From the NCBI GenBank assembly GCA_017397925.1, contig JAFQHO010000006.1, positions 1 through 64,000 of the forward strand: DNA of 64,000 nt. The letters are read 5' to 3'. Below, piece by piece: positions 17,099 through 54,468 of the stretch (its first letter is position 1; every line of letters begins with the position of its first letter). The notes under the pieces were generated by a model. The model was not told the DNA's origin, made no database searches, and was given only the letters and a program-made list of their open reading frames with translations. This DNA comes from Ruminococcus sp. (GTDB lineage Bacteria; Bacillota; Clostridia; Oscillospirales; Ruminococcaceae). A program made the translations under genes and the position numbers.

Positions 17099-17144
17099 TC
17101 AGGGAGCGTTCAGATAGCACCCTGATATGACAGGAGTGATTTAT

Positions 17145-18341
17145 ATGAAGCTTTGGAAAAGTCTGGTATCAGCTGCTATGGCTCTGACAATGGTTGGAAC
17201 AGTTGTACCTGCAAGCACATCCGCCTTTGCCGTAACAACGGATATTTCACCTGTAAGAGTAGTCGAAAAAGCTGATTTATCGCAGAATGCAGAGAGTTTT
17301 GATACTGTAGAGGCTGCGGCGCGGTATGTTAGGGAGTGTATCAGAACAAGAGATACTGAATTTGTATATTCGCTCCCTGCAAGCCTTGATTATGAAAAAA
17401 CCTTCCACGATGTTATGCTTGGAGCCGTTGAGGAAACATATAATGCCGATGAGGGCGATTATATCAAGTATGACATAAGCAGCGTCTACTGCAAGGGAAA
17501 ATATGACGGAGTGAGGTATTATTACTACATCACAATGGAATACTACACCACAGCCCTTCAGGAGCAGTATGTTGACAACAAGGTTAAGCAGCTCATCAGT
17601 ACTCTTGACCTTGAAAGCAAGGACGATTACGGTAAGATATGTGCTATATACGAGTATATTATCAATAACGTAGGATATGACTACAACGAGGACGAGGAAA
17701 ACAAGGAAAGATTTTCGGCATATGGTGCTTTGCACAATGGTAAGGCAGTATGTCAGGGCTTTTCACAGCTTTTCTACCGCCTTGCAAAAGAGGTAGGTGT
17801 ACCCTGCCGCATAATTTCGGGTACTGCTGACGGCGGTCATGCCTGGAATATTGCTGCGGTAGACGGTATATATTACCTTGTAGACTCCACATGGGATATA
17901 TTCAGTGATAATGTTTCTCAATGTGATTATTTTATGAAGGGCAGCCTTGATTTTGACGATGCTGACCCTGAAAAGCCCCATATTGCGTCGGGAGCTGATC
18001 CTGATAATTTCATACTTACGGATTTTTCAACAGCTGAATTCAAAGCTGAATATCCTGTTGCTGATTATGCTTTTGATGCGAATGACAGAAAAAAAGGCTA
18101 TGTTCTGGGAGATGTCAACAATGACGAAGTAATTGATTCTGTTGACGCCTCCGTGATACTCAGCGCTTATGCAAATTTGTCTATATACGGCGTAAGTTAT
18201 ATATCAGCGGCACAGGAACTGGCAGCTGATGTAAATATGAATAATACCATTGATTCCACCGACGCGTCTGTCGTTATGGAATATTACGGTTATGTTTCCA
18301 CGGGAGGGGAGCTTCCCTTTACAGATTTTTTAAGAAGGTGA
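17145..18341 (+). CDS. secreted transglutaminase-like protein with C-terminal dockerin
   Basis: This 398-residue protein has a signal peptide (1-29, cut after SAFA) and a transglutaminase-like cysteine-protease fold with the triad Cys203 (KAVCQGFSQ), His232 (GGHAWN) and Asp247 (YLVDSTWD). At about 318-390 are two dockerin-like Ca-binding repeats (GDVNNDEVIDSVDASV and ADVNMNNTIDSTDASV). Such modules probably cleave or remodel protein or peptide bonds outside the cell; the dockerin would place it on a cohesin-bearing scaffold or the cell surface. The ATG at 17145 has AGGAG 8 nt upstream and is preferred to an ATG six codons earlier that lies before it. It lies 4 nt before the APVLDD membrane-protein gene. 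Confidence 0.85.
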   Translation: MKLWKSLVSAAMALTMVGTVVPASTSAFAVTTDISPVRVVEKADLSQNAESFDTVEAAARYVRECIRTRDTEFVYSLPASLDYEKTFHDVMLGAVEETYNADEGDYIKYDISSVYCKGKYDGVRYYYYITMEYYTTALQEQYVDNKVKQLISTLDLESKDDYGKICAIYEYIINNVGYDYNEDEENKERFSAYGALHNGKAVCQGFSQLFYRLAKEVGVPCRIISGTADGGHAWNIAAVDGIYYLVDSTWDIFSDNVSQCDYFMKGSLDFDDADPEKPHIASGADPDNFILTDFSTAEFKAEYPVADYAFDANDRKKGYVLGDVNNDEVIDSVDASVILSAYANLSIYGVSYISAAQELAADVNMNNTIDSTDASVVMEYYGYVSTGGELPFTDFLRR

Positions 18342-24552: not shown

Positions 24553-24581
24553 TTGACTTTTGTCGATACTTGTAGTATAAT
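24553..24581 (+). promoter_or_regulatory. sigma-A promoter of the pilus operon
   Basis: TTGACT (24553-24558) and TATAAT (24576-24581) are separated by 17 bp. The start codon of the first gene lies about 55 nt downstream. No other strong promoter or terminator is visible before 42268, implying a transcript of about 17.7 kb. Confidence 0.85.
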
Positions 24582-24636: not shown

Positions 24637-24933
24637 ATGACAGATAAAGAAATACGAAAATTAAAACGTGCCGACCTTCTTGAAATACTCTATTATCTCC
24701 AGAAGGAAATAGAGGAACTCACAAAGGAAAACGAATCCCTTAAGAATCAGCTTGAAAATTCAAAGGTAAGTTTTTCAGAAAACGAACTTAAAAGAATTAT
24801 AAAGGCTGTTAAATCAGCTACAAGGGATGCTGTAAGAGAAACGGCACAGAATAATAAAAACGAATCTACTATTGATAAGGCTAATGAAAAGGGTAAGCAA
24901 AATAATGGAGATGGAAAAACAAACGAAACGTGA
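24637..24933 (+). CDS. small coiled-coil protein at the head of the pilus operon
   Basis: This 98-residue hydrophilic protein has a strong coiled coil at about residues 15-45 (LEILYYLQKEIEELTKENES...) and a polar Lys/Asn-rich tail. It has no signal peptide or membrane segment, so it is cytoplasmic. It is the first gene behind the pilus promoter and overlaps the signal-peptidase start by about 29 nt. The position suggests a role in expression or secretion of the pilus proteins, but no catalytic feature exists. The ribosome site is GGAG. Confidence 0.7.
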   Translation: MTDKEIRKLKRADLLEILYYLQKEIEELTKENESLKNQLENSKVSFSENELKRIIKAVKSATRDAVRETAQNNKNESTIDKANEKGKQNNGDGKTNET

Positions 24934-25492
24934 TATCCCGACTGCTAATCAGTTTTATGCTGAAATGAAGCGTGTCAGATATAAGAAGAATTTCAGAAAG
25001 ACAATCATTGCTACAGTTAATTCGCTAATTGTTGTTGCAGCGGTTTCAGTTCTGATTTCTATGCTGTTCCTCCCGGTATTGAGAGTAACAGGTACAAGTA
25101 TGACTCCTACGCTTTATAATGATGAACTTGTAATATGTAACAAGCGCAGTAATTATAAACAGGGGGATATGATAGCATTCTACTTTAATAATAAGATTCT
25201 TCTTAAGAGAGTAATCGGACTTCCGGGTGACTGGGTAGACATCACAGAGGACGGAACGGTATACGTCAACGGCGAGGCGCTGGATGAACCGTATATCGAC
25301 GAAAAGGCACTTGGTGAATGCGATATAGATTTACCGTATCAGGTTCCCGAGAGCAGAATATTTGTAATGGGTGACCACAGAGCAACATCCATTGACAGCC
25401 GAACAAGTATGGTTGGCTGTATAGCTGATGAGTATATCATCGGCAGATTGATATTCAGGGTATGGCCCTTCAAGGCTATAAGCCCGCTTTAA
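24905..25492 (+). CDS. lepB: signal peptidase I
   Basis: This 195-residue type I signal peptidase has one N-terminal membrane helix (about residues 30-55), the catalytic Ser65 in GTSMTP and Lys101 in LLKRVIGLPGD, and the closing box GDHRATSIDSR. It removes signal peptides from exported precursors. The start at 24905 follows AAGGGTA within the end of the previous gene; a second ATG at 24911 is possible. Placement inside the pilus operon suggests dedication to the pilins or the giant adhesin, as in Firmicutes pilus islands that carry their own peptidase. Its distance from the adhesin start is about 40 nt. Confidence 0.93.
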   Translation: MEMEKQTKRDIPTANQFYAEMKRVRYKKNFRKTIIATVNSLIVVAAVSVLISMLFLPVLRVTGTSMTPTLYNDELVICNKRSNYKQGDMIAFYFNNKILLKRVIGLPGDWVDITEDGTVYVNGEALDEPYIDEKALGECDIDLPYQVPESRIFVMGDHRATSIDSRTSMVGCIADEYIIGRLIFRVWPFKAISPL

Positions 25493-25532
25493 TACGCAGC
25501 GTTTGTTCAAAATCTGAAGAGAGGTGATATCT

Positions 25533-28500
25533 GTGAAAGAGCTGCAGAATTATATTTACAGACATATGGACGCATTGAAGCACCACAAGAGATATCTTGC
25601 TATGCTCACCGCTTTATCAATGCTCGTTACTTTCATAGTTCCGCTTATTCTTATTGAGCCTGCGGATAGTATGTCGGGTATACTTATTTGTGGTCAAGAA
25701 GAACATACCCACAACGATGAATGTTATGATGGCGATACTCTTGTTTGTGGACTTAATGAGCATATCCACACAGAAGATTGTTACCTTAAATATTCCTCTG
25801 CTTTGAGGGGTAATGGGAATAACGACGGCGGACAAAACGTTGATGTATATAATGCTTTTGGTGCAGATGCTAACTATGATGCTAAAACCGATAAGTACTA
25901 TAGCCCTGAATCTGTTCCGCTTTACACACTTCTTTTCGGTGAAGGTACTGGTCATTGGGTTGATTCCGGAGCTTCTCTTGAGGATAACCTGCTGCGTGTA
26001 GGTCAGGAGTACTTCTTAGGTTATGCAAGTGACTTCTGTGCTTTCATCGAAGGCGACTTTATCGCTTATGATGCCGATGCCGAAGGACGTATGTTTGTCG
26101 GTGGTGACCTTATTTTCAGAGGTCAGCCCGGAGGCAGTGAATGGAACTATCAGGTTGGTGCAGGTGACTACGGTCATTCAATACCTATCTGGGAAACAGA
26201 TGAATACAACGGTATAACTGGATTTGCATCAGGTATTATCGGTGGTAAGGTTTACCGTTTAGGTACGATGACTACATTTTCTACAGTTACGAGAGATTAT
26301 GGTCTTGAGCATCCATTACCTGAAAATCGTACTCTTGACAGACATTTTTCCGGATATGATATTTTCTTGTATCCAGAGGAAGGTGCTTATAAGAAGTTTA
26401 TTGTAGGAAACCTTGAGGATTCACTTCATCTTGATGAAGATTATTTAGAACGAAACCCAGATGGATTAAAGGATGTTCCATACGAAACAAGCTGTAATCA
26501 TTTATATTTCAAAAAAGAAGGACAAGCTGATAATACGTATTGTGGCTTGTGTAACAATAAGACTGATGAAGCTATGGAAGCCGAGCATAAATATTTAAGT
26601 AATGTAAATGAGAAGGCTCAGTTTTACAATTATAGCGGTGTAAATACAATTCTTGAAAAAACCTTCGATACTTTAAGAGCTCGTTCTATGAGTCTTGGTT
26701 CTATTGATGCACTTGAAACTACGATAAACGGTGATACACTTGTATTGAATGCTACAAATATAGGTGACGCTAAAACAGTATATTTCAATGTCAGAGATTG
26801 GGACAAAATAGCTGATACGACAATACGGAATATTCAGATTATTGTTCCTCCTGAAAGAGTTACATTTACTGAAGATGGCGATAAAGAAGAAGAGTTTGCC
26901 TTAAATAGTGCTAAAACTATCAAGAATCTTGACTTGAATATTATTATCAGTTGTGATGACCCAACCATAGAAATCCCTAGAAGTATAAGTACATACATCA
27001 AAGCGGGCGAAAATGGAGAAACACCTGATGATGGTAAAGGCTACAGAATAAGCAATGCCGGTACACCTAATGTTGCACAGTCAAATGCAACTAACAATCA
27101 CCACGTTTCATCTAATATTCTTTATAACTTCTATAATGCAACATTAGTAGATTTCTCAGGTGAGCAAGGTGGTATTGGTGCAGGTGAAGGTGCTAACTTT
27201 AACGGAACAATTTTAGCTCCGAATGCACACGTTGAATCAGAAAAATTGTGTCCCGGACATCTTTCGGGTGCGTTGATTGCGAAGTCGTTTGAGGGCGGTC
27301 TTGAATTCGGTTACAGACCTTACCGTGGCGGCGTTGATATTTTCGGTATGGTTTCCGGTTACGGAATTCCTGTAAATAAGTATGTGGAAGGTAAGCTTGA
27401 GGATGGCGAACCTGTCTATCTCCCAGGTGCATTGTTCGCTATTAAAGAGGACGCTAAGTTTGTAAGCTTGTTTGAAAGCGGAAAAGAAACAAACTTCGCA
27501 GCACTCCCTTCAAGAGTCGATTTTTCAGGCAATGGACCGTATAAGGCTGAAAAGATTGACCAGAATAAAGGTGACAGACCTTATATCGGAACGGAAATTC
27601 AAGGCGAAAAGCTTACAGCATCAGTTTCATACGAATTGTATTCAGATTCAGGTTGCACTAATAAGATTGGTGAAAACGTAGGTAATGTACTGCCTAAGTT
27701 CTATCTCAAAGCTAATCAGGAATTGAATTTCGATTTTAATGAAAATTATAACGCTACTCTGATTGATGAAACTAATCACATTTATGAAATTCAACTTCTT
27801 AAACCTGTAACAGGTCTGACAATTACTGCACGAAACAAAGGCGATAGTGAAGTTCTGAAGACTGCAACAGTTAATTTCGGTGCTATGACATTAAGTGTTG
27901 GAATGAAAAATGGAAACGCTGAAGATGGATATACTGTTGGTGAAACAGTTAACTTTACTATTGACAAAGCTCCTGCAGGCGACGTTACTTATAAGTATTT
28001 TATAAATGGTAGTGAGATAGAAAATTATAATAATAATGAAGGCTATCAATTTAAGCCTGAAAATCTGGGTGGTGTGACATTTAGCGTAAGCGCATATGTC
28101 GATGGGTATGAAATAGCACAGGCTACAGCTACAAAGATAAATGTAACAGATTTCAGTTTCTCATCAGATATGGCTTTTATAGTTCCAGATTCGATTATAT
28201 CCGGTAATGATTTGACGTTAAATGTTGAAAATGCTCCTGAAGATGCAACAATAGAATATTATATCGGTCAAGGCGGAAATTTCACAAAGATTGATAATAA
28301 CGTTTACAATACATATGGTGTTGTCGGAAAAGACTTTGTTGTAAAAGCAGTAATAAAAGCTAATGGTAAGGAAATAACATTACAAGACTCAGTAACAATA
28401 AACTTTGGTACTGATATAGAATATGGTGCTTATCCTAATACATCTGATCCTGAAACAGCTACAAAATACAACTATGATGTTAGCCCCTACGATAATTTCA

Positions 28501-31500
28501 ATTTCTGGTTAACAAACGTCGGAAATTATTTGGATAGAGTTGCAGAAAATAATAAAAAGATAACATTCTACTTCAATGATAAACCTCTTACAAACACCGG
28601 TTTTAACAATGCTACTAAAGACCATAAGCAGATTGGCGATTATTACACATATGCTATTATTGAAGCTAACGGATTGCAGCATACAGTTTATGGTCCAAGC
28701 GGTACAATTAAGTACAATGACAAATTAGGCTTGTTTGTTCCGGATGGACCTCATACAGCTGGCAACAACATCAACGTAAACGTTTTTGATGCTCCTGACG
28801 GTGCAAAGGTTAAATTTGAAGCGTATGATTCAAATGGTACTAAAGTAGAATGGTCAGAAGAAAGAGATATTAGCGGTTGTACTTGTAACGTTGTATTTAC
28901 ACCTCAAAAATCAGGTGATTACACAATCATAGCAACTCTGAAGTTTGCAGAGAATGATAATAAAATCTTAACCGCTACAATCCCCGTTGTTGGTAGACCT
29001 GTTACCGGTGACTTGTACATCAGTGCTAACGAGGCTAATACAGGTGTTGAAGTTGGACTTAAAGTTACTAACGCTCCTGAAGATGCTGACGTTGTATTTA
29101 CAATAACTGATCCATATGGAAGTACAAGTACACTTACAGGAAATTATGATAACGGTGAGTACAAGAATACATTTACACCTAAACTTGCAGGCGATTATTC
29201 CATAGTAGCTAAGATTTCTAAGGATAATGTTTCCAAAACGACAGAAGCTAAGACCCTTAAAGTAAATGAAAAAACAACAACACTTACAGGTTATTTATCA
29301 CTAAGCAGTGGCGGAATAACAGATCCTGAAACAGTTGCTCCCGGAACCTCAATCATGGTTAATGTAACAGACATTACTATCGGTGCTACACTTTACATTT
29401 GTGTTAGAAATCCAGGTGGTAATGTAGTATGGGAAGAAACAGTAACTAACAACAGTGGTACTTATAATCGTGAGTTTATTGCAAATGATGTTGGTACTTA
29501 CACAGTTACCGGTTCGATTTCGTCAGGTGCTCAGAATCAGCCATTGAGTGAGAAGAAGGTTATCGCAACAGGTACAATTGAAATTGAAGCTAAAAGTGGT
29601 ACAAATGAACAAGGCAAATTCGTAGTGGGTACTCCTGTTACATTGGGCTTGGCAAATATTCCAAGTAATGCAGTTCGTGTTGATTACTATCTGAGTAGTT
29701 ATAACTCAAATAGTCCAATGCAGGACGTTGGAATTGATGCTACATACAATGCTGATATGACTATTACATTCCCTCCAAAACAGGCTGGTACACATGAATA
29801 TACTGCTAAAGCGATTGATGCTAACGGAAACGTAATTGCTACTGTAACAGAATACTTTGAAACAGTACAGAAATCATATGACGACTTTACAATTACACTT
29901 GATAAAGAATTTTATTACCACGGTGAAACAGTTACAGTTACATTATCTGGAACGCCGGAAAACTTAAACAACGTGCAAACTTATATTGAGGACATAGGCG
30001 GTGTAAATAACTTCGTAATAGTAGAAAGTGGAAAAACATATACCTTTACAGCACCTAGTCACATTAATGTTGAAACAACACGTGAATTAACTTTTTCTGT
30101 TTTCCTTAATGATGGTAGTTCAGTTTCGGTATCAACTAACATTACAATTAAACCACCTGAACAAGCTTCTAATGTTCAACCGGCTTCACTTTCCTACGCA
30201 TTCAGAAGATACCTTGAAATTCTTGCAGAGCAGAACTTAGAAGATAATGTGGTATCAATTAAAGATGAGCAAAACAGAAGAATAGGTGATCTTAGAATTA
30301 CATTCTTAGGTAACATTTATGAAAGCCAAGGAAAATTTAAGATTAATGTAGAATTTATACACAGAGATGGTTCTAAAACTAATAAGGATTATGACACAGT
30401 AAGCGGTTCAAATCCATATTATATTGATATTCCGGCCGGAGATTTTACCGGTGATGTAACTGAAATTAAGATTACTCCTGTTGAGGGCGCAGTAACAATT
30501 GATAAGTGTTATCCGACATTTTACAAGAATGAAAACAAGATAACCAAGACATCTTCAAGAGGATTTACGCTTCTGAAAGATGAGGTACAGGAAATTCCTG
30601 TTGAAGAATGGGTAAAGGCACTTGATTCAATAACACTCAATCTCGGAAGTGACCAAAATGCAACTATTTCCTACGCATTGGTTGAAAAGGTTGAAGAAGG
30701 TGGAGAACCTAAGGCTCCTGTATTCAAAGAGGTTACTGTTCAAAATGCTTCTTCGATAGGTGCTACTAATCTTAATGTAGAAAATATCGAGAAAATCCTG
30801 GTTTATACCACAGCAGCTTCATTGACAGTAAAAGATTACACAATAAGTGGTTTTACAGAAAAGGAATATACTCCTGACGAGCAAGAAAACTTAAAGAACC
30901 ACGATTATGACATAATCAACTTCTACACACTGGTTGAGCAGCAGGCTCCGACAGGTTACTTCAAGGAAGAAACTATCTATAACATTGAAGTAAAAGAAAC
31001 TATCAAGCTTAATGAGCTTCAAGTAATCGGTGAAGGTGAAGGTGAAGAAGTATATCCGACAGTGGTTTATACTACGATTACTGTAAAGAAAAAAGATGGT
31101 ACTATAGCATTGCAGTATACCGTTGAAGTACATCCTGAAACAGATGGCGTTTATGATGCTAATTCAAGAAAGCTTACCATTCACAACACTGACGGTACAA
31201 CAACTTTCAAAGTGAGAAAGGACGCTAATGACGAGGTTGAAGTACTTTCAGCTGACAACAACCCAATAGCAAAATCATCATCTACATTTAAATTCGATTA
31301 CGATGGTAAGGACTATTATTTAGACCCAGGCGCTTTGATGATAGTTCCTGTACCAGATCCGATTGAATATAAGAATAGAACAGGTCTTCTTTTCAGAAAG
31401 GTTGATAACAATGGTATTCCTGTTCAGGATGCTCTTATTGAACTGTACAAAGAAGTAAATGGTGAGTTTGTCAACGTCGAAGGCGTGAGAAATGATGATG

Positions 31501-34500
31501 ATACTGGCTGGATAACACAGCCTGACCCGATTGGAAGCTACTGGAACTGGACTCAAGGTTCCACAACGGAATGTCTGTTGCCAATTGAAGAGTTAGAATC
31601 AAATGTAACCTACAAATTCCATGAAGCTAATGTAAGCGATAAATACGAGCTTGCGAAAGACATTTTCTTTAAGAAGATTAGCGACACCCAAATAGAGTAT
31701 TGGGAAGAGGGAGGAGATTCAGTTACAATTGATATTTCGACTAATAACGTAATTCGTATGTCGGACTACAAGATTCCCGGTATAAAGCTTAAAATTGGTA
31801 AAGTTGGTGAAAATAATCAGGCTCTTGAAGGTGCAGTTTTCGATCTCTATGCTGAAGGCGATTTTAAAATCAAAGAAAACATAAATGCCGGCGACGGAAA
31901 AGGTGTTGAGATTGATTTTAGTGATACTACAAAGCTCGAAGAAGGCGCTGAAAGGTACGTTGAAAGAGGTTATCTGAAACCCGGTTCATACTATCTGATT
32001 GAAACAACAATTCCTGAACATACTGATAACGACAAGTGGTATGAAGATCCAGGTAAGATAGGTTTTAGGGTTAAGGATGATTTTACGGTTGAGTGTTATG
32101 ATTATAGTGCTACAGCCAGTCAGCTTAAAACAGGTAACGGTTCAGATAATCCTTGGGGATATTGGTTGATTTTTAATGATAAATCAATGAAGGAACCAGA
32201 TTCCGGAGGTAAAATCGAGAATGTTACAAATATTTATGTAGTATTGACACCATATCAGGGTAATACTATCAATATCAAAGAATGTTGGACTAATAATAAT
32301 CCTATCAGTAACGAACCAATTACAACAAGTTCAAGTACTGTGAAATTTGAACAATCAGGTAATAATTATACATTGAATTGGACAATGGATTCACCAAAGG
32401 ATTTTACTCAATTCAAAATAACCGGTAGTGATATGGTAGTTTCATATGTTAAGATAACAACTGCCGACGGTACCGAACATATTTTCAAGGAACCGGATTA
32501 CGTTCTTGAAGATTCTGGAAATACTCCAGAGAATGAAGATGAGAAGATACCTGCTCTTACTGTAGACGGCAACACAATTACAGTTGGTAACAATGTTGGC
32601 GAAAACAGCAGAGATATTAAGGTAAACAAAAAGTGGCTTGGCGATAATGGATTTGAAGAATTCCGTAAACCTGTAACAATTACTCTTTATCAATCAAGGA
32701 CAGAAATAACAGACAGAGATAAATTGACAGATGCCATGAAGTACAAGAAGAATGGCGAAGTATACACCATAACACTTAACGAAGCTTCAAACTGGACAGG
32801 TGCTTTCGAGGATGTTGAGGTAAAGTATCTAGATGAATCTGACGGAAAATACAAGGATTATTACTATTACATCAAGGAAGCAACCATTGAAAACTATGCA
32901 ACAACATATGAAACTAAACCCGATGGTACATTAATTGTAAATAATACTCTTGAAACAGTAGAAATTCCTGTTCAAAAGCATTGGGCCAATGATACCGGTC
33001 AAGAGATTGCGTATCCGGAAAACATTACAGTTCAGCTTCAGATGCTTGTTGACAATGACGGTTCAGGTCCTGCAATTCCACAATGGGAGGATGTTCCTGA
33101 TAAGTTACTTACTTTAACACAGGCAGGCGAATGGAAGGGAACTTTCAGTGGTCTTGCCAAAGGTCATTCCTATCGTGTTAAGGAAGCTTCTGTAAAGATA
33201 GGTTGGCAGGTTGATGATAGCCTTACGGATATTGTTACAGTAGATGAAAATGGTAATATCAGTGAGCAGAAAGGTTCAGTTGATAACACTCTTGAAATCA
33301 CAAATAAACCCCAGGCAGAAAACCTTTCTAACCTGGAAATTCAGAAGTTGTGGGATTCATATGAGAACTTACCTGATTCAATCAAAGTAAGATTATTCCG
33401 AAAGACTCTATACGCAACATATCCAATAGGTCAGCCGGCTACAAGTGTTACAAATGAGGATGGTTCAGTTACTGTAGGCGTTCAGGATGACTACGCAAGA
33501 CTTCTCCAATATTCGCTCTACTTCTACGACGCAAATATGTGTGGCGATACTGCGGCAGAAAACAGTGCAATAGCATGGCGTGGTGATTGTCATACAGACG
33601 ATGAAATAAAGGGTGGCTTCCACGATGCAGGTGACCATGTAATGTTTGGTTTACCACAGGGTTATTCAGCATCAATGCTTGGATGGAGCTTTTACGAATT
33701 TAAGGACGCATATGACGAACTTAATCAGACAGAACATATTAAGAAAATTACTGAACATTTCTGTGACTTCTTTGTTCAAGCTGCTCATTTTGTAGACGGG
33801 AACGAAGAAAATGCAATATCTGAAATCCTTGTTCAAAAGGGTGCAGGAAATCCTGACCATCAGTACTGGGGACCTCCCGAAAACCAACCTTCTCGAAACG
33901 ATTCAGTAACATTAACTGATGACGGAAGAGGTGCAACAGGCTGGAATAACGGTCAATGGACTCTTGATAATGAAATGTTCTGGACAAGTAGCGGCGGTGA
34001 TATAGCAGCTGAATATGCAGCAGCTCTGGCTCTTGCTTACTTGAATTTCAATGATGGTTCTGATAAGTATAGTAATTATCTCGCAATGGCAGAAAAGTTT
34101 TATCAGTTTGCACAGGGAAAAGGTGTACTTGACGATTGGGGTATTAACAAGGACGAACTTGCAACGATACAGCAATATCCCGGTTTCTATAAATCTGATG
34201 GAGCTGATGATGACAGAGCTTGGGCAGCAGGTTGGTTATACTTAGCGACGGGCAGAAATAATAATGATTACAAAACAGCTTGTTTCAATCTTGATAATGA
34301 TGTTGGAAGCTGGGCATTCAGCTGGAATGACGTTAAACTTGCAGCTGCTTGTGTAAGCGCTCATGTTAATAGTAATGATAAAGCTGACCCATGGAAAAAG
34401 GTAAGAGAATACGTTAGCGGTAAAGCCGGTGATGGTTTTTACCGCCCCGAAGCTAATAATTGTTGGGGTACTGCAAGATATAATGCGGCATTACAGATGG

Positions 34501-37490
34501 CGGCTCTTGCTTTAACTAAAAACGATTCACAGTCTGATTATAAAAACTGGGCAAAAGCACAGATGGCTATGATTCTTGGTAATAATAATTGGAACGGCGG
34601 AAAATCAGTTTGCTTGGTAACAGGCTTCGCTGAAAACTCTGCTAAGTATGCACACCACAGAGCTGCTTCAGGTTGGCAGAGCCTTGAGGAATATAAAAAT
34701 CCTGCTCATACAACTTATGCTGCAGATAGTCAGACGTTAATCGGTGCAATGGTTGGTGGTCCGTACTTCGGAGCTCATACTGATGCTCAAATGACGAATT
34801 ACGGTCATAAAAATCTTTTAGAATCTCATAATTATCTGGATGACCTCCACGACTACTGCTGTAACGAAGTTGCTCTCGACTATCAGGCAGGTCTTGTAGG
34901 TGCAGCAGCAGGTCTTTATCACTTCTTTAAAACCGGTAGTACGTTTGAAATCCCAGGCAATAGCATTGAAACACAGTATGTAACTGCTTCTGCTGCAAGT
35001 ATTCCGACATTGTTAATGGGGCCACAGGTGGTTTCAATGCAGAAAACTGCGGTTAGTGTGTTGGCAGCTGGAGATGAAATGTGCTATCCTGCGTTAGAAG
35101 CTGGTGAAGCTAAGCATGTATTCCAAAATAAAGACGGTGATTCAAAGACTTACTCTGGTACAATTTATGATAATGTTACAAGAATAGAAATTGATCTCGG
35201 TTGTTCAAACAGTAGCAAAAATGTTTGGAATGATGATTTCGGTGGTATGGAATTTGAATATACAGAGATTGAATCAAATGGAAATTCAAAATCTGTAAAT
35301 ACAGGTTGGATGCAAAATCCGTCAAATAATGGCGGCTTTTCACGAATGCGCTCTATATCATTTGATGAACCTAAGACCATTTCTCAATTAAGATTTCATA
35401 ATGTAAAATGGTGGAATGGTGGCGATAATATAATTATTGAAGAAATTCGTTTATATTATGAATCATCAGGTCCCTCAATAAGCTCACCAAAATCAACAAT
35501 AGCAGTTGGCGATAGCATGACACTTACCTACAGTGAAGCTGGTGTTACTCCAAATTGGAGCGTTGATGATACTAATTTAGCAACAATTGATAGTAACGGT
35601 CAACTTACAGCAAAGGCTGCAGGAACAGTTGTAGTTACAGCAAATGAAGCTACTAAGAATATTATCATTGAAGAGCTTGAAATCGGCGGTAGCGAAACAA
35701 TGAAAAAAGACAGCACACAAGAACTTACAATCAACAGTATTAACGGAATAAGCGGTTTTACTTGGAATTCAAGTGATACAAATGTTGTTGAGGTAAATGG
35801 AGGTGTTGTAACAGCTAAGGCTGCAGGTACGGCAACAATTACAGCTACTAATAACGGTTATACCGATACGTTTGATATAACAGTTGTTGATATTCGCTCT
35901 GTGACAATTAATGTTAATCAGGCATTAAATATTCATAATGGTCCAAAAGAACATACTATTAAATTTGCTAATAATGACGAACCAATATTTAATGGCAATG
36001 AAAAAATTATGAATATTATAGTGAATTTAAGTGCATCCGGTAACATTAGTACAACTCAGGGTTTATACAGACTTAAGGTAAAACCTGGTACTGGAAATAA
36101 TCAGGAAAAAGATAAACACGAACAAACAAATCAAACATTCAATATAACAATTACCGACGGTAAAGGATCACATAAGATTAATACAAGTGAAATTAATGAT
36201 ATTGATTTAACAAAGGATGGACAGTTTGAATTTGGTTCTTGGTACGGTAATCCTGCAGATATTACAATTGATAGCATAGTTATTGAGTATATAATTGACC
36301 GTAGGATTACATCCGATAAGGACACAGTAATGGTTAAACTTCCTGTTAATTTCACTGCGGTAGGCTTTGCGGATAACACAACGTGGACTGTTACCGATGA
36401 AAGTGGTACACAGATAAATGTTGACAACGCAACAGGCACAGCATTTACATTCACACCAACTGCTGTTGGCACTTATACAATCACAGCAACTGATGAAGGA
36501 GGCTCTTTACAAAAAATTATAACAGTAACACCATACGAGTTGAAATTTGAAGATAACACTACAGAAAAGGCGTTCACACTTCGTAAAAACAACAGCTTAG
36601 ATATTGATTTCAATGTCGAAAGCGACCAGGTAAGCATTACCGAAGTGGATACCGAGTACTTGATAATTAATGGAACAACAGTCAGCGTAAAAGATGATAC
36701 TCCCGTTGGTACGATAATTCACTTCCGGGCAGAGTATATTGGTGATAACAACGCTACTACATTCGCTCTATTAAGGAATGGAAGTGGTTCAGTAGTAACC
36801 GGTACAATTGAAGTTTTAGAAGAATTACAAATCACAGCAGAAGATTTAATTTATAACGGTGAAACAATTGAGCTTTCTGCTAATGGCGATGTTAACTGGT
36901 CGATAGAATCAGGTGAAGAATACGCTTCACTTAACGGCAATAAGCTTACAGGTATCAAAAAGGGTACAGTTGTAGTCAAAGCAACAGACCAAACAGACGG
37001 CTCAACAGCTACAATTTCAATTGCAGTAAAAATCGGAGCAGTTGGTCCCGGATTTGATATATCTAAGGGATATGAGCCTGTACTGGTTGATGGAAAAGAA
37101 GTAATCGATATCTTAGCTTCAGAAGATTGGACAAAGAAAATCACCAATTTAGAGATTAAGGACTCGGACGGCAATTACTATATGTATTTCTTTGCTGAAT
37201 GTGATCAAACAGGTAAATTGATAAGTGGCGGTTCAGGCGACCAGATCGCAGGTAAAAACGGGGCTTGCTTTGTTCCTCTTGAATATCAAAACGGCACAGT
37301 ACTTACACAAGGCATTTCCACAGGGCTTTCTGTAAAGAATTCACTTGCAGTTGAAGCTCAAGGCACTCTCCCCTCCACCGGCGGAAGCGGAGTGACGACA
37401 TATTATTACTTAGGAGGTGTAATCATGCTTCTGAGTATAGCCGGGTTCACAGGTCTTAAGCGACGTGATAGAAAGCGTCGTAAAGAATAA
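25533..37490 (+). CDS. giant LPXTG pilus-tip adhesin with internal GH9 cellulase domain
   Basis: This 3985-residue surface protein starts at a GTG 8 nt after GAGAGG. Order of parts: membrane-type signal (about 21-42); two Cys/His motifs CG.xEH.H...CY (51-86); a choice-of-anchor-A-like domain (about 104-600); some seven Ig-like repeats with VxLxVxNAPxDA cores (about 800-1480); Cna-B domains (about 1950, 2086, 2360, 2475 and 2599); a GH9 domain (about 2653-3137) with His2697-Asp2698-Ala-Gly-Asp2701-His, His3041-His-Arg and the general acid Glu3112 in DYCCNEVALDYQAG; a beta-sandwich (about 3180-3310); Big-2-type repeats (3314 to about 3830); and LPSTG at 3946-3950 with a hydrophobic helix and basic tail. 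The frame is unbroken over 12 kb. It would be linked by sortase to the pilin downstream and bind and probably cut cellulose. Confidence 0.9.
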   Translation: MKELQNYIYRHMDALKHHKRYLAMLTALSMLVTFIVPLILIEPADSMSGILICGQEEHTHNDECYDGDTLVCGLNEHIHTEDCYLKYSSALRGNGNNDGGQNVDVYNAFGADANYDAKTDKYYSPESVPLYTLLFGEGTGHWVDSGASLEDNLLRVGQEYFLGYASDFCAFIEGDFIAYDADAEGRMFVGGDLIFRGQPGGSEWNYQVGAGDYGHSIPIWETDEYNGITGFASGIIGGKVYRLGTMTTFSTVTRDYGLEHPLPENRTLDRHFSGYDIFLYPEEGAYKKFIVGNLEDSLHLDEDYLERNPDGLKDVPYETSCNHLYFKKEGQADNTYCGLCNNKTDEAMEAEHKYLSNVNEKAQFYNYSGVNTILEKTFDTLRARSMSLGSIDALETTINGDTLVLNATNIGDAKTVYFNVRDWDKIADTTIRNIQIIVPPERVTFTEDGDKEEEFALNSAKTIKNLDLNIIISCDDPTIEIPRSISTYIKAGENGETPDDGKGYRISNAGTPNVAQSNATNNHHVSSNILYNFYNATLVDFSGEQGGIGAGEGANFNGTILAPNAHVESEKLCPGHLSGALIAKSFEGGLEFGYRPYRGGVDIFGMVSGYGIPVNKYVEGKLEDGEPVYLPGALFAIKEDAKFVSLFESGKETNFAALPSRVDFSGNGPYKAEKIDQNKGDRPYIGTEIQGEKLTASVSYELYSDSGCTNKIGENVGNVLPKFYLKANQELNFDFNENYNATLIDETNHIYEIQLLKPVTGLTITARNKGDSEVLKTATVNFGAMTLSVGMKNGNAEDGYTVGETVNFTIDKAPAGDVTYKYFINGSEIENYNNNEGYQFKPENLGGVTFSVSAYVDGYEIAQATATKINVTDFSFSSDMAFIVPDSIISGNDLTLNVENAPEDATIEYYIGQGGNFTKIDNNVYNTYGVVGKDFVVKAVIKANGKEITLQDSVTINFGTDIEYGAYPNTSDPETATKYNYDVSPYDNFNFWLTNVGNYLDRVAENNKKITFYFNDKPLTNTGFNNATKDHKQIGDYYTYAIIEANGLQHTVYGPSGTIKYNDKLGLFVPDGPHTAGNNINVNVFDAPDGAKVKFEAYDSNGTKVEWSEERDISGCTCNVVFTPQKSGDYTIIATLKFAENDNKILTATIPVVGRPVTGDLYISANEANTGVEVGLKVTNAPEDADVVFTITDPYGSTSTLTGNYDNGEYKNTFTPKLAGDYSIVAKISKDNVSKTTEAKTLKVNEKTTTLTGYLSLSSGGITDPETVAPGTSIMVNVTDITIGATLYICVRNPGGNVVWEETVTNNSGTYNREFIANDVGTYTVTGSISSGAQNQPLSEKKVIATGTIEIEAKSGTNEQGKFVVGTPVTLGLANIPSNAVRVDYYLSSYNSNSPMQDVGIDATYNADMTITFPPKQAGTHEYTAKAIDANGNVIATVTEYFETVQKSYDDFTITLDKEFYYHGETVTVTLSGTPENLNNVQTYIEDIGGVNNFVIVESGKTYTFTAPSHINVETTRELTFSVFLNDGSSVSVSTNITIKPPEQASNVQPASLSYAFRRYLEILAEQNLEDNVVSIKDEQNRRIGDLRITFLGNIYESQGKFKINVEFIHRDGSKTNKDYDTVSGSNPYYIDIPAGDFTGDVTEIKITPVEGAVTIDKCYPTFYKNENKITKTSSRGFTLLKDEVQEIPVEEWVKALDSITLNLGSDQNATISYALVEKVEEGGEPKAPVFKEVTVQNASSIGATNLNVENIEKILVYTTAASLTVKDYTISGFTEKEYTPDEQENLKNHDYDIINFYTLVEQQAPTGYFKEETIYNIEVKETIKLNELQVIGEGEGEEVYPTVVYTTITVKKKDGTIALQYTVEVHPETDGVYDANSRKLTIHNTDGTTTFKVRKDANDEVEVLSADNNPIAKSSSTFKFDYDGKDYYLDPGALMIVPVPDPIEYKNRTGLLFRKVDNNGIPVQDALIELYKEVNGEFVNVEGVRNDDDTGWITQPDPIGSYWNWTQGSTTECLLPIEELESNVTYKFHEANVSDKYELAKDIFFKKISDTQIEYWEEGGDSVTIDISTNNVIRMSDYKIPGIKLKIGKVGENNQALEGAVFDLYAEGDFKIKENINAGDGKGVEIDFSDTTKLEEGAERYVERGYLKPGSYYLIETTIPEHTDNDKWYEDPGKIGFRVKDDFTVECYDYSATASQLKTGNGSDNPWGYWLIFNDKSMKEPDSGGKIENVTNIYVVLTPYQGNTINIKECWTNNNPISNEPITTSSSTVKFEQSGNNYTLNWTMDSPKDFTQFKITGSDMVVSYVKITTADGTEHIFKEPDYVLEDSGNTPENEDEKIPALTVDGNTITVGNNVGENSRDIKVNKKWLGDNGFEEFRKPVTITLYQSRTEITDRDKLTDAMKYKKNGEVYTITLNEASNWTGAFEDVEVKYLDESDGKYKDYYYYIKEATIENYATTYETKPDGTLIVNNTLETVEIPVQKHWANDTGQEIAYPENITVQLQMLVDNDGSGPAIPQWEDVPDKLLTLTQAGEWKGTFSGLAKGHSYRVKEASVKIGWQVDDSLTDIVTVDENGNISEQKGSVDNTLEITNKPQAENLSNLEIQKLWDSYENLPDSIKVRLFRKTLYATYPIGQPATSVTNEDGSVTVGVQDDYARLLQYSLYFYDANMCGDTAAENSAIAWRGDCHTDDEIKGGFHDAGDHVMFGLPQGYSASMLGWSFYEFKDAYDELNQTEHIKKITEHFCDFFVQAAHFVDGNEENAISEILVQKGAGNPDHQYWGPPENQPSRNDSVTLTDDGRGATGWNNGQWTLDNEMFWTSSGGDIAAEYAAALALAYLNFNDGSDKYSNYLAMAEKFYQFAQGKGVLDDWGINKDELATIQQYPGFYKSDGADDDRAWAAGWLYLATGRNNNDYKTACFNLDNDVGSWAFSWNDVKLAAACVSAHVNSNDKADPWKKVREYVSGKAGDGFYRPEANNCWGTARYNAALQMAALALTKNDSQSDYKNWAKAQMAMILGNNNWNGGKSVCLVTGFAENSAKYAHHRAASGWQSLEEYKNPAHTTYAADSQTLIGAMVGGPYFGAHTDAQMTNYGHKNLLESHNYLDDLHDYCCNEVALDYQAGLVGAAAGLYHFFKTGSTFEIPGNSIETQYVTASAASIPTLLMGPQVVSMQKTAVSVLAAGDEMCYPALEAGEAKHVFQNKDGDSKTYSGTIYDNVTRIEIDLGCSNSSKNVWNDDFGGMEFEYTEIESNGNSKSVNTGWMQNPSNNGGFSRMRSISFDEPKTISQLRFHNVKWWNGGDNIIIEEIRLYYESSGPSISSPKSTIAVGDSMTLTYSEAGVTPNWSVDDTNLATIDSNGQLTAKAAGTVVVTANEATKNIIIEELEIGGSETMKKDSTQELTINSINGISGFTWNSSDTNVVEVNGGVVTAKAAGTATITATNNGYTDTFDITVVDIRSVTINVNQALNIHNGPKEHTIKFANNDEPIFNGNEKIMNIIVNLSASGNISTTQGLYRLKVKPGTGNNQEKDKHEQTNQTFNITITDGKGSHKINTSEINDIDLTKDGQFEFGSWYGNPADITIDSIVIEYIIDRRITSDKDTVMVKLPVNFTAVGFADNTTWTVTDESGTQINVDNATGTAFTFTPTAVGTYTITATDEGGSLQKIITVTPYELKFEDNTTEKAFTLRKNNSLDIDFNVESDQVSITEVDTEYLIINGTTVSVKDDTPVGTIIHFRAEYIGDNNATTFALLRNGSGSVVTGTIEVLEELQITAEDLIYNGETIELSANGDVNWSIESGEEYASLNGNKLTGIKKGTVVVKATDQTDGSTATISIAVKIGAVGPGFDISKGYEPVLVDGKEVIDILASEDWTKKITNLEIKDSDGNYYMYFFAECDQTGKLISGGSGDQIAGKNGACFVPLEYQNGTVLTQGISTGLSVKNSLAVEAQGTLPSTGGSGVTTYYYLGGVIMLLSIAGFTGLKRRDRKRRKE

Positions 37491-37537
37491 ACGCAAAACG
37501 AACAAAGGCAAATCACACGAAAAGCAAACAATGAAAG

Positions 37538-37568
37538 GGGAGGGCGTGTATAGGCTCACGCTCTTCCC
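37538..37568 (+). promoter_or_regulatory. intercistronic hairpin between adhesin and major pilin
   Basis: GGGAGGGCGTG pairs with CACGCTCTTCCC (one bulge) and is not followed by a T tract, so it is not a normal terminator. Such hairpins often mark RNA processing or protect 3' or 5' ends, which could raise major pilin above tip protein. Confidence 0.5.
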
Positions 37569-37601
37569 GAAACCGAAAAATTATTTTAAAGGAGAATTAT
37601 T

Positions 37602-39506: not shown

Positions 39507-39575
39507 GTTAAAATATAACATTATTAAATCGGAATAGAAAACATAAACTAACTAAAGGCTAATTAACCTAATTAT

Positions 39576-39603
39576 GCCGCCGACGGTGAAAGCTGTCGGC
39601 GGC
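39576..39603 (+). promoter_or_regulatory. intercistronic hairpin between major pilin and class C sortase
   Basis: GCCGCCGAC (39576-39584) pairs with GTCGGCGGC (39595-39603). The loop is about 10 nt and no T tract follows, so it is a likely processing or stabilising element that uncouples pilin from sortase levels. Confidence 0.5.
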
Positions 39604-39619
39604 CATTAGGGAGGATCCC

Positions 39620-40507
39620 ATGAAGAAAAAAATCAATAAAGCAAGCTTATTTACAACAATATTTTTTACATTAATGCTGTTCGTGGGAGTCTCCGTGATG
39701 CTTTACCCAATCGTAAGCGATTGGTGGAACTCCAAGGTACAAAGCCGAGCAGTTGCCAACTATGAAGTGGCAGTTGCCAATATGGACACAAGCAGAACAG
39801 ACAGAATGATTGAAAAGGCAAATGAGTATAACAAGAAAATCGCCCGACTTGAAGCACCTTTCGTGGATTTCGACAAGGTTGCGGGCTATGACTCAATCCT
39901 CAATATTTCAGGTACGGGAGTTATGGGCTATATTTCAATTCCTGTAATTCAGGTTGAATTGCCTATCTACCACGGCACAAGTGAAGAAGTTCTGAATATT
40001 GCCGCAGGTCATCTCGAGGGTTCATCCCTCCCAGTAGGCGGAGCGAATACCCATTCAGTAATATCCGCCCACAGAGGATTGCCCTCAGCACGACTTTTCA
40101 CCGACCTTGACAAAATCGAAAAAGGCGATGTATTCACAGTCAACATTCTCGACCGAATTTATACCTATGAGGTTGAGGAAATACTCATTGTAGAGCCTCA
40201 CGAAATTAACACGCTTTCAATTATCCCCAACAGCGATTATGTAACACTTATGACTTGTACCCCCTACGGTATCAACACACACCGTTTGCTGATACGCTCA
40301 CACCGTATCGAAACCGTGTACAAGAAAGAGTACAGAGTTGTTGCGGAAATGGTAAAAATTGACCCTATGCTTGTAATTCCGTTTATCTGCGCTCCATTTG
40401 TATTAATACTGGTGTGCTATTGGGTATTCGGCGGCAAGCGTAAACCGAAATCACCACGAGAAATTGCAGCACGTCTGATACTGGACGGAAGGGAGGTTGT
40501 AAAATGA
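39620..40507 (+). CDS. class C (pilin-polymerising) sortase
   Basis: This 295-residue transpeptidase has an N-terminal membrane helix (about 9-30), the catalytic His151 (SVISAHRG) and Cys213 (TLMTCTPYG) and the Arg in HRLLIRSHR, followed by a second membrane helix near the C-terminus (about 253-275, LVIPFICAPFVLILVCYWVF). Two membrane helices and the TLxTC active site are typical of class C sortases, which cut LPXTG pilins and link them into a covalent fibre. The stop overlaps the next gene by four bases (ATGA). GGGAGG provides the ribosome site. The usual DP(W/F/Y) lid is not obvious; the segment LEAPFVDFDKVAGYD may replace it. Confidence 0.94.
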   Translation: MKKKINKASLFTTIFFTLMLFVGVSVMLYPIVSDWWNSKVQSRAVANYEVAVANMDTSRTDRMIEKANEYNKKIARLEAPFVDFDKVAGYDSILNISGTGVMGYISIPVIQVELPIYHGTSEEVLNIAAGHLEGSSLPVGGANTHSVISAHRGLPSARLFTDLDKIEKGDVFTVNILDRIYTYEVEEILIVEPHEINTLSIIPNSDYVTLMTCTPYGINTHRLLIRSHRIETVYKKEYRVVAEMVKIDPMLVIPFICAPFVLILVCYWVFGGKRKPKSPREIAARLILDGREVVK

Positions 40508-41628
40508 CAACAGCGAGAAAAAGAATCGGCGCTGTGCTAATAGTTACAGGTATGATGATTATGTTCTGCCTTAGCTGTATGTGTACTGTTGCCTCGGCTA
40601 AAACAAATGGAACGCTGACTCTTATATGCGAATGTGAAAATCAGCCTGTAAAAGGCATAGATTGGAGTCTTTACCGAATCGGCTCTTATGACGGAGAAAA
40701 AATTATTCTTGAAGGTGAATTTGCAAATCTTCCTGTTGACATGAGAGATCTTTCCGCCTCAGGACTTGCAGATGCTGCATCAACTCTGGACGGCTATGCC
40801 TGTGTTTACAAGTATAAAACAACGGATACTGCAAAAACTAAAAAGGACGGCACAGTTCAGCTTAAATTTGATGAAGCAGGAGCGTATCTCATAGTTGGAA
40901 GTTATGTCGTAGACGGTAACACAAGATATTATCCAACTCCTGCAATTTTCATTCTTGACCCTGAAAAGGAAACTGAAACAACTATATATCCAAAAATTAA
41001 AAAGGATGACGTTGTTGACGGCGGAATAAATGAATATCATCTTATGAAAATCTGGAATAACGAAGATGATGAAAATGCTGTATATACTGAAATCATAGTA
41101 GATATTTACCGTGATTCAAAGTATTATAAAACGGTAACTCTTTCTAAAGAGAATAACTGGAGTTATTTTTGGGAATCAGATGAGTATCATAAATGGACAA
41201 TGATTGAACGCAAGATTCCGAAAGAGTACGCTGTAATTTACAGAGAAAACGGCAAGCAGTATATAGTTGTCAATGTATACGTTCCTGATTTTGATTTTGA
41301 CTGGGAATTGAATTTCCCACCTCCTGTAGCCGAGGAGCAGACAACTACAACTACAACCGATGTTACAACAACAGACGGTACAACAGCTGAAACTACTACA
41401 ACAGCAACTGAAACTACAACTACAACAGAAGATATCGCTGCACAGGCTTCAAAAACAACAACTCAAACAACACAAAAAGTTACAACCAAGAAAACTACCA
41501 CAACAAGCAAGCTTCCGCAGACGGGACAGTTATGGTGGCCTGTGCCTGTAATGGCAATTGGCGGTCTTGTACTTGTTGCAACAGGTGCGAGAATAATCAG
41601 CGGTTCTAAGAGGGACGAAGATGAATAA
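40504..41628 (+). CDS. minor or anchor pilin with Thr-rich stalk, LPQTG-anchored
   Basis: This 374-residue protein has a signal peptide (1-32, ending in VASA), an Ig/Cna-B-like N-terminal domain (about 35-150), a second Cna-B-like module (about 175-275) and a Thr-rich linker (about 283-335) built of TTTT, TTE and TTD runs. LPQTG lies at 337-341, then a membrane helix and a charged tail. The layout is that of the basal pilin that joins a pilus to the peptidoglycan. The Thr-rich stalk would span the cell wall. It overlaps the sortase genes on both sides (4 and 8 nt), so expression of the three is tightly coupled. Confidence 0.85.
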   Translation: MTTARKRIGAVLIVTGMMIMFCLSCMCTVASAKTNGTLTLICECENQPVKGIDWSLYRIGSYDGEKIILEGEFANLPVDMRDLSASGLADAASTLDGYACVYKYKTTDTAKTKKDGTVQLKFDEAGAYLIVGSYVVDGNTRYYPTPAIFILDPEKETETTIYPKIKKDDVVDGGINEYHLMKIWNNEDDENAVYTEIIVDIYRDSKYYKTVTLSKENNWSYFWESDEYHKWTMIERKIPKEYAVIYRENGKQYIVVNVYVPDFDFDWELNFPPPVAEEQTTTTTTDVTTTDGTTAETTTTATETTTTTEDIAAQASKTTTQTTQKVTTKKTTTTSKLPQTGQLWWPVPVMAIGGLVLVATGARIISGSKRDEDE

Positions 41629-42265
41629 AAAACACGGATTATTTTGTGTAGTACTTGGGACATTGCTGCTAATAGCGGCAATGTCCCTTGTTTTCTACAA
41701 CAGGCATGAAAATAAAAAAAGCGGTGAGGCTGCGGAAACGGTTCTAATGGAGCTTGTGGAGGTAATTCCTGCACAGCCGCCAACTGAGCCGCCTACGGAA
41801 ATTCCTACAGCAGGGGATATTCTTGCAGAATATGACATTGAGCCTACGACTGTTCCCAAAGAGGAAACAACAGTTGTAATCGCTGAAAACGGCTATATCG
41901 GAATAGTGAAAATTCCCGATTTACAGCTTGAACTGCCGGTTATGAGCGATTGGAGCTACCCGAAGCTGAATATTGCACCCTGCCGATACAAGGGAAGTGT
42001 AGCCGAGGGAGATATCATCATAGCGGCACACAACTATTGGTCACATTTCGGCAGATTGTCGGAGTTGGGCGGCGGTGAGGTGTTCACATTCACCGAGGCT
42101 GACGGCACAGTTCACAAATACGAGATTACGGAGATTATCCAGCTTGACGGCAGGGATATTGAGGGTATGGATTTCGGCTCTGCGGAGTCGTGGGATATGA
42201 CGCTGTTCACCTGTACTCTCAGTGGTCAGAGCAGAGTTACTGTTCGAGGTGTTGAAATAGAATAA
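41621..42265 (+). CDS. second sortase (housekeeping or class D-like)
   Basis: This 214-residue sortase has an N-terminal membrane helix (about 7-26), a Pro/Thr-rich spacer with repeated PTEPPTEIPT (about 50-80), the catalytic His137 (IIAAHNYWSHF), Cys198 (TLFTCTLSG) and the Arg in QSRVTVRG. Unlike the upstream sortase it lacks a C-terminal membrane helix, so it is not class C. It most likely attaches the finished pilus to the wall through the minor pilin LPQTG signal. The exact class is uncertain. Its start overlaps the previous stop by 8 nt, and the operon terminator follows directly. Confidence 0.85.
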   Translation: MNKKHGLFCVVLGTLLLIAAMSLVFYNRHENKKSGEAAETVLMELVEVIPAQPPTEPPTEIPTAGDILAEYDIEPTTVPKEETTVVIAENGYIGIVKIPDLQLELPVMSDWSYPKLNIAPCRYKGSVAEGDIIIAAHNYWSHFGRLSELGGGEVFTFTEADGTVHKYEITEIIQLDGRDIEGMDFGSAESWDMTLFTCTLSGQSRVTVRGVEIE

Positions 42266-42267: not shown

Positions 42268-42306
42268 AAAATCCCCTGTGTCGGAAAATCCGATACGGGG
42301 GATTTT
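42268..42306 (+). terminator. terminator of the pilus operon
   Basis: AAAATCCCC pairs with GGGGATTTT, with an inner stem TCGG/CCGA, immediately after the sortase stop. Confidence 0.85.
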
Positions 42307-48005: not shown

Positions 48006-48033
48006 AGCTGTTCTCCTATCCGATATAAAATAA

Positions 48034-48060
48034 GGCTCAGAACAGCGTTCCGTCTGAGCC
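48034..48060. terminator. hairpin in the leader of the MmeI-like gene
   Basis: GGCTCAGA pairs with TCTGAGCC around an 11-nt loop, with an A/T-rich run on both sides (TTATTTTATA on the minus strand). It lies between the promoter at 48078-48106 and the start codon at 48005, so it may end the upstream YolD operon or attenuate the restriction gene. Confidence 0.65.
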
Positions 48061-48077
48061 ATTTTTTCTCATATACA

Positions 48078-54463: not shown

Positions 54464-54468
54464 AAACT

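Follow-up and report, generated by a model that had tools for sequence, protein, structure and literature searches.

Introduction

Gram-positive bacteria assemble covalent pili with class C sortases, as in the SpaA and RrgB types, whose tips carry adhesins such as SpaC or RrgA, and these pili are generally regarded as adhesive. Here, we describe a locus in a 64,000-nucleotide stretch of DNA from Ruminococcus sp., a fibre-degrading gut bacterium (family Ruminococcaceae; assembly GCA_017397925.1, contig JAFQHO010000006.1, positions 1 to 64,000 of the forward strand; hereafter, the window), in which the gene for a giant LPXTG adhesin, standing in an operon of pilus type, encodes an internal catalytic domain of glycoside hydrolase family 9 (GH9). 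The locus resembles the known class C sortase pili in combining an LPXTG tip-type protein, a backbone with an isopeptide-forming domain, and a candidate base pilin with a class C sortase. It departs from them in having an intact glycoside hydrolase within its tip-type subunit, a signal peptidase gene at the start of the operon, and a second sortase gene at the end.

Each of the closest described systems shares part of this arrangement. The predicted pilus island Bpr_I0893-I0898 of the rumen fibre degrader Butyrivibrio proteoclasticus B316 also comprises a signal peptidase, three LPXTG proteins, and two sortases, a likeness of description rather than of compared sequences, and the accessible portion of that report mentions no catalytic domain (PMC2914790). 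Bacillus cellulosilyticus likewise displays a sortase-anchored GH9 on a Gram-positive cell, but the available part of its description concerns class D sortases and a single wall-anchored enzyme, with no pilin genes reported (PMC3617157). In Ruminococcus flavefaciens, the ScaE scaffoldin and type IV pili are other routes that bring cellulase or cells to cellulose; ScaE acts by a non-covalent hold via a cohesin, and the type IV pili belong to another class of pilus, on which the accessible parts of those sources describe no enzyme (PMC2930009, PMC3672088). The genome paper of R. flavefaciens FD-1 counts 12 GH9s, and its main text, in the portion available, mentions no pili, sortase, LPXTG, adhesin, or collagen (PMC2721979).

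We consider it probable that the window specifies a pilus built by sortases, with a functional family 9 cellulase on its giant minor pilin. Sequence establishes the architecture of the adhesin and shows it to be conserved and intact; its joining of the pilus, its location at the end, hydrolysis, and binding are inferred. A first examination of the window, by a model that saw only the letters and their open reading frames (ORFs; hereafter, the sequence-only reading), had called such an appendage undescribed; we likewise found no earlier account in the open-access full texts searched, a body of literature that leaves subscription papers, preprints, and supplements mostly outside. A cellulase-bearing pilus subunit would give gut bacteria a route beside secretion, wall anchoring, and cellulosomes, one that delivers cellulases to fibre at a distance from the cell. 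It is also relevant to the unsettled question of how ruminococci attach to and attack plant cell walls.

An intact GH9 domain within the adhesin

The adhesin ORF runs uninterrupted across positions 25524 to 37490 of the window, which comes from a genome of 2.71 Mb in 87 contigs. The sequence-only reading had rightly recognized a real, open frame but began it at 25533; since most aligned relatives begin with a MISVKELQN-like sequence, the GTG at 25524, three codons upstream, is the likelier start, and residue numbers counted from it exceed those of the sequence-only reading by 3. A Pfam scan of the protein identified pAdhesive_15, SpaA, Cna_B, one complete GH9, and Big_2 domains. Its sorting signal scored over the cut-off of the NCBIfam LPXTG model and under that of the Pfam Gram-positive anchor. 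Pfam found no dockerin in the adhesin, and the dockerin matches listed for the genome all lie elsewhere.

The GH9 domain matches PF00759 over profile positions 1-443 of 444 (E=1.1e-81; 275.8 bits, cut-off 27.7; residues 2654-3124 in the numbering of the sequence-only reading) and a genus GH9 profile, which includes the window protein, over positions 2-439 of 447 (545 bits). The best relative of solved structure by sequence is 2yik (E=9.4e-67). When aligned with 27 enzymes, the domain retains the full catalytic set, namely D2701 and D2704 of the HDAGDH motif (codons 33624-33626 and 33633-33635), H3044 of the H-x-R motif (34653-34655), and E3115 (34866-34868; E3112 of the sequence-only reading), whose roles we take to be those assigned in the GH9 literature. 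A structure model of residues 2595-3610 (sequence-only numbering) has a mean predicted local distance difference test score (pLDDT) of 61.2, with good confidence for most of the GH9 and low confidence for a large part of the sequence after it. In Foldseek, this model matched 2yik (CelT; E=8.6e-23, TMt 0.77) as well as Cel9M, and a model of the related adhesin L148 matched 1ia6 (TMt 0.86), with CelT and Cel9M among its matches. The GH9 of the predicted window model has the (alpha/alpha)6-barrel fold of the family. The profile search and the structure prediction that the sequence-only reading had proposed both bear out its claim of an internal GH9, and the alignment bears out the Asp pair, the His motif, and the acid Glu. 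A chance or miscalled GH9 is ruled out by the PF00759 match, the sequence match to 2yik, and the fold of the model.

The GH9 appears to split the terminal Cna_B domain

The GH9 is placed toward the sorting-signal end of the adhesin. Its position is not simply the one first proposed, between Cna-B and Big-2 domains; rather, it appears to be inserted inside a split terminal Cna_B stalk domain, the second half of which lies beside the LPSTG signal. In the sequences, a Cna_B start (K-x-W ... LYR) precedes the GH9, and a Cna_B-like end (W ... YYYY ... E ... N) adjoins the LPXTG motif after the whole insert. We compared the halves with a profile of 114 positions built from the intact Cna_B domains nearby. 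Each of the 18 first halves matched within profile positions 9-51 (17 at E<=0.005), and 7 of the 18 second halves did so within positions 44-113 at E<=0.01, among them those of L150 (positions 44-87, 1e-5) and L159 (positions 45-113, 2.9e-4). Strands are present at the expected places at either end of the L148 model (residues 1680-2381, mean pLDDT 76.8). A related adhesin without GH9, L158, is split in the same way, with a short immunoglobulin (Ig)-like stretch in between.

Recurrence of the architecture across the genus

Carriers were sought with a GH9 search and an adhesin N-terminus search of 125 genomes of the genus, followed by a sortase search, and 84 regions were fetched; counts for the genus come from the matches listed and are lower bounds, and final GH9 labels rest on BLAST hits and a clean genus GH9 profile. 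(Labels beginning with L and G are our handles for loci and genomes.) The GH9-adhesin architecture recurs well beyond the window, in at least 22 of the 125 Ruminococcus genomes, the window's own included, with several of the adhesins ending at contig ends; a class C sortase was detected at E<=1e-30 in 91 of the 125. Since separate assemblies carry the GH9 adhesin, a one-off gene fusion or an assembly artefact is ruled out. One carrier is the well-known rumen strain R. flavefaciens FD-1 (L147), in which genes for a signal peptidase, an adhesin of 2,470 residues, a backbone, and a class C sortase are consecutive, so the idea is testable in a cultured strain. A signal peptidase gene lies less than 600 bp upstream in 16 of the 20 GH9 adhesins with a visible 5' flank, including that of the window.

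Further GH9 adhesins lie on the named contigs L163 and L170, the latter fitting, by its coordinates, a strong N-terminus hit (G499) in another genus of the family. In a survey of the family, the adhesin N-terminus was matched in 26 of 396 drawn genomes, 21 of them outside the genus. No GH9 adhesin was present in 16 regions (from 14 of the 21 outside-genus genomes and two of the genus), although in 9 of them the adhesin ORF extends past the end of the sequence; in L173, a separate GH9 gene lies near the adhesin.

Several side observations concern these operons. In L065, L070, L079, and L083, the signal peptidase gene directly precedes those for the backbone and class C sortase, with no adhesin between. 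Compared with the window, L084 and L031 of genome G045, whose contigs we take to adjoin, have a sortase C and an LPQTG pilin that are approximately 98% identical, whereas the backbone is approximately 32% and the GH9 approximately 48% identical over the aligned part; this suggests much more rapid divergence, or exchange, of the adhesin and backbone than of the assembly genes. Genes of the Ruminococcus-type operon also occur on contigs L140 and L150, whose titles name Lachnospira and Alistipes; these names of metagenome-assembled genomes are probably wrong.

Origin of the pilus GH9

To place the pilus GH9s, we used two trees. The first comprised 24 distinct pilus GH9s (from 41 ORF copies) and 27 enzymes, after filters on BLAST length, E value, and adhesin hits that excluded some close enzymes (L010, L014, L129, and L131 among them); the second set the pilus GH9s against 44 enzymes, including those excluded before, with nine incomplete ORFs dropped and only the larger piece of the FD-1 domain retained. 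The 24 pilus GH9s formed one side of a single branch in the first tree (99/97; 99% of bootstrap trees) and stood together in the second (98/99; 99% of bootstrap trees), there as part of a group supported at 100/100 that also holds 11 enzymes, in an order that the tree did not resolve. Repeated independent captures of GH9 are unsupported, with one group in both trees.

Seven of the 11 grouped enzymes were scanned: L010, L013, L014, L129, and L131 have the layout GH9-DUF5620-dockerin, with the dockerin over the cut-off in L013, L129, and L131, and L011 and L018 are GH9 only. The five GH9-DUF5620-dockerin enzymes share with the pilus GH9s both the 100/100 group and a related module after the GH9; they are presumably cellulosomal, whereas the pilus GH9 lies inside an adhesin and has no dockerin. 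This pattern suggests a single capture of a cellulosomal GH9 into an adhesin, with loss of the dockerin. The window module near residue 3500 is related to some of the DUF5620 modules that follow the GH9 of other enzymes (best E=5.1e-07), and the window lineage perhaps captured this carbohydrate-binding module (CBM) 79-like segment together with the GH9; no relative of the segment was found in the other pilus adhesins collected.

Proposed assembly and alternative readings

By analogy with known sortase pili, the adhesin would be secreted, and the class C sortase would join its LPSTG signal to a lysine of the backbone pilin, making the adhesin the distal subunit of a pilus whose backbone polymerises and is fixed to the wall via the LPQTG pilin. 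Its N-terminal adhesive domain would then point outward, and the GH9 would sit where adhesin meets shaft, cutting the beta-glucan chains that the pilus touches. The cell would display cellulase on both cellulosomes and pili, and the appendage may both hold and cut plant fibre.

A number of findings weigh against this reading, and we give them here with the alternatives. Second Cna_B halves are weak in 11 of the 18 adhesins, including that of the window (E=0.16) and one whose contig ends early. Both trees are midpoint-rooted and carry long-branch warnings for some rows. The window backbone scored 66.2 bits with the SpaH/EbpB model NF033902, under its cut-off of 95, and its candidate pilin-motif lysine has no canonical YPK context; by eye, most of 46 aligned backbones have a lysine at the pilin-motif place, in a VKK or PK context and not YPKN.

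The adhesin may be singly anchored to the wall by a wall sortase and never enter a pilus, its long stalk serving to project the GH9. Three of the 18 GH9 adhesins with a visible 3' flank (L020, L027, and L028) are encoded away from pilus genes, and the B. cellulosilyticus GH9 is anchored by an LPXTA motif, apparently without pilin genes in the part of its description available (PMC3617157). Genomes G123 and G006, the sources of L020 and L027, hold elsewhere (L065 and L079) an operon of signal peptidase, backbone, and sortase without an adhesin. In the remaining 15 of the 18, however, including the window, the backbone gene lies directly 3' of the adhesin gene and is followed by that for the class C sortase, and the layout of a signal peptidase, three LPXTG proteins, and two sortases can be likened to that of B. 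proteoclasticus pilus islands as they appear in the accessible portion of their report (PMC2914790). We regard single anchoring as unlikely.

A lower likelihood attaches to an enzyme that acts on another beta-glucan, such as mixed-linkage glucan, xyloglucan, or the exopolysaccharide of a neighbour, in which case the pilus would be for attachment or for contact within the community and not for digesting cellulose. GH9 structures of other specificity exist (glucosaminidases are among the structure matches), the ligand of the adhesive domain is undefined, and adhesins of the same layout vary widely. The nearest structures, on the other hand, are those of the clostridial cellulases CelT and Cel9M, the GH9 group adjoins enzymes of cellulosomal type, and the genome holds ten GH9 and 97 dockerin matches. 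It also has six cohesin matches (4 over the cut-off). Apart from the adhesin, nine ORFs of the genome have a GH9, and by position seven of these also have a dockerin match, under the cut-off in one case; from the combined dockerin, cohesin, and GH9 matches, the cell probably also makes cellulosomes. The holding part of the proposed bind-and-cut appendage would depend on the N-terminal adhesive domain of undefined ligand and on the CBM79-like module, which matches PF18522 weakly (18.8 bits, cut-off 25), as it does the CBM79 structure PDB 4d3l (phmmer E=0.0012, compared with 2.3e-36 for a stretch of L014), and falls in a region of the window model where pLDDT is mostly <50.

Least probable of the three, and in our judgement very unlikely, is that the GH9 has turned into a lectin-like module that binds glucan but hydrolyses it little or not at all. 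Losses of catalytic residues do occur: L028 has Gln in place of the catalytic His, and L026, in a domain of full length, has Phe in place of the His and Gly in place of the acid Glu. Many pilus GH9s also lie on longer end branches than related enzymes. The dN/dS ratio (nonsynonymous to synonymous substitution) of the GH9 ranged from 0.14 to 0.25 across five pairs, two of which have saturated or near-saturated dS; as the pair with the degenerate L026 is similarly low (0.154, with dS saturated), these values indicate constraint on the domain, not on catalysis as such. Yet all four catalytic residues are kept in 21 of the 24 distinct pilus GH9s, including that of the window, and L032 ends at a contig end before the Glu. 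The middle residue of H-x-R, distinct from the catalytic His, changes from H to Y or F in some pilus GH9s. As a separate observation, the ORF at L026:4160-11911, with its full-length GH9 lacking the catalytic His and Glu, likely encodes a pseudoenzyme.

The pilus-borne cellulase of the sequence-only reading is upheld in part. The intact GH9 in an LPXTG adhesin, the class C sortase operon, the linkage in most relatives, and the low dN/dS all favour it; because three adhesins are unlinked and the GH9 of one relative is degenerate, neither pilus linkage nor catalysis is universal.

A permuted GH9 and other adhesin cargo

Alone among the 24, the GH9 of the FD-1 adhesin is circularly permuted (L147:14363-15736; one draft genome). 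Residues 1455-1846 match profile positions 43-432 (457.5 bits), and residues 1872-1912, farther along, match positions 3-43 (67.8 bits), such that the N-terminal helix segment of the domain is placed after its C-terminal end. Insertion into a loop needs neighbouring termini, and a circular permutation would therefore be tolerable. No permuted GH9 was found by title or abstract in the open-access literature searched.

We also scanned with Pfam 16 adhesins without GH9, of which 14 belong to pilus operons; the other two, L041 and L060, have no pilus genes in the fetched regions. None of the 16 had a GH9 match. Five, including L069 and L071, matched a GDSL esterase family, most in the same operon layout, and in the two esterase adhesins studied in detail, the esterase precedes a Cna_B match and lies outside the split Cna_B. 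Further adhesins without GH9 (L080, L091, L093, L099, and L181) were outside this Pfam set. It is quite possible, although we advance it tentatively, that Ruminococcus sortase pili form a modular organelle for displaying enzymes alongside the cellulosome, with giant adhesins that share an operon layout but differ in hydrolase between lineages: a GH9 taken up once, by closed-loop insertion in a split Cna_B domain, and GDSL esterases elsewhere. That insertion would also have permitted the FD-1 permutation.

Organization of the operon

The operon comprises six genes, encoding a signal peptidase, the adhesin, an LPGTG backbone pilin, a class C sortase, an LPQTG pilin, and a second sortase. Sorting signals and profile matches confirm the four parts named by the sequence-only reading (LPSTG adhesin, LPGTG backbone, class C sortase, and a probable anchor pilin), to which the upstream signal peptidase I and the second sortase are added here. 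The features are listed in Table 1. The backbone pilin also scored over the cut-off for TIGR01167, and the LPQTG pilin, which had no Pfam match at E<=0.01, is probably the base or anchor pilin. A PDB search with a slightly shorter query than the module of undefined kind gave no relative at E<=1.

Table 1. Features of the pilus operon and of its GH9-bearing adhesin, in window positions.
Feature	Position	Strand	Evidence
Promoter-like TTGACT-17-TATAAT upstream of operon	24553..24581	+	Consensus scan, 11/12
Signal peptidase I, first operon gene	24872..25492	+	TIGR02227, 122.4 bits, cut-off 47
Giant LPSTG adhesin with internal GH9, 3,988 residues, GTG start	25524..37490	+	ORF, start alignment
N-terminal ice-binding-like adhesive domain, pAdhesive_15 / choice-of-anchor A	26016..27311	+	PF20597, E=3.6e-19; TIGR04215, 52.8 bits, cut-off 29
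SpaA prealbumin-like stalk domain	31785..32021	+	PF17802, E=5.3e-07
Intact Cna_B stalk domain, directly before the split one	32964..33209	+	PF05738, E=1.5e-08
First half of apparent split terminal Cna_B (approximate)	33324..33413	+	Profile positions 14-42 of 114, E=4.4e-4 (set of 36 halves)
GH9 catalytic domain	33480..34979	+	PF00759; genus GH9 profile; catalytic columns; structure model
Module of undefined kind, beta-rich in model	35073..35579	+	Related segments in adhesins L034 and L036; modest model confidence
Big_2 Ig-like domain	35742..35867	+	PF02368, E=1.9e-09
CBM79-like module (DUF5620), putative glucan binder	35946..36287	+	PDB 4d3l, E=0.0012; PF18522 under cut-off
Second half of apparent split terminal Cna_B (approximate)	37068..37349	+	Weak: profile positions 57-72, E=0.16
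LPSTG sorting signal, then hydrophobic stretch and basic tail	37368..37382	+	TIGR01167, 19.7 bits, cut-off 15.9
12-bp RNA hairpin in adhesin-backbone gap	37537..37568	+	z=-3.22; -2.74 over exact gap 37491-37601
Backbone (major) pilin, LPGTG, 634 residues	37602..39506	+	TIGR04226, 48.5 bits, cut-off 30
Backbone-sortase gap with strong RNA hairpin	39507..39619	+	z=-4.43
Class C sortase	39620..40507	+	NF033745, 272.8 bits, cut-off 160
LPQTG pilin with TIYPK stretch	40504..41628	+	Sequence; NCBIfam matches under cut-off
Second sortase, class unclear	41621..42265	+	PF04203, E=1.4e-12; TIGR01076, 33.5 bits, cut-off 39.35
Intrinsic-terminator-like hairpin at operon end	42268..42306	+	18-pair stem directly after last stop

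Consensus matches of the promoter-like kind are common by chance (69 found, 61.7 expected), and the scan of the region for terminator-like hairpins found 5 sites, with 11.0 expected by chance. RNA folding covered 12 of the 15 linked GH9 operons. All 12 have hairpins in the adhesin-backbone gap (z from -2.7 to -4.9) and z < -3.2 in the backbone-sortase gap. In the three linked operons outside the folded set, the first gap is of 33 bases without a hairpin (L023) or of 19 bases (L039/FD-1), or the genes overlap (L170). As first-gap hairpins also occur in operons without GH9 (z from +0.9 to -6.1 in 13 operons), they are not special to GH9. Such hairpins would suit a backbone subunit made in excess of the tip and the sortase.

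Elsewhere in the window, positions 12039-15233 encode a Cthe_2159-type carbohydrate-binding protein with a dockerin match under the cut-off, and positions 17127-18341 a dockerin-bearing transglutaminase-like protein. An MmeI-like restriction-modification protein is encoded at 45228-48062, and at 53342-60009, genes for DUF2800 (with a nuclease match), a family A DNA polymerase, and D5_N are consecutive, as in phage replication modules.

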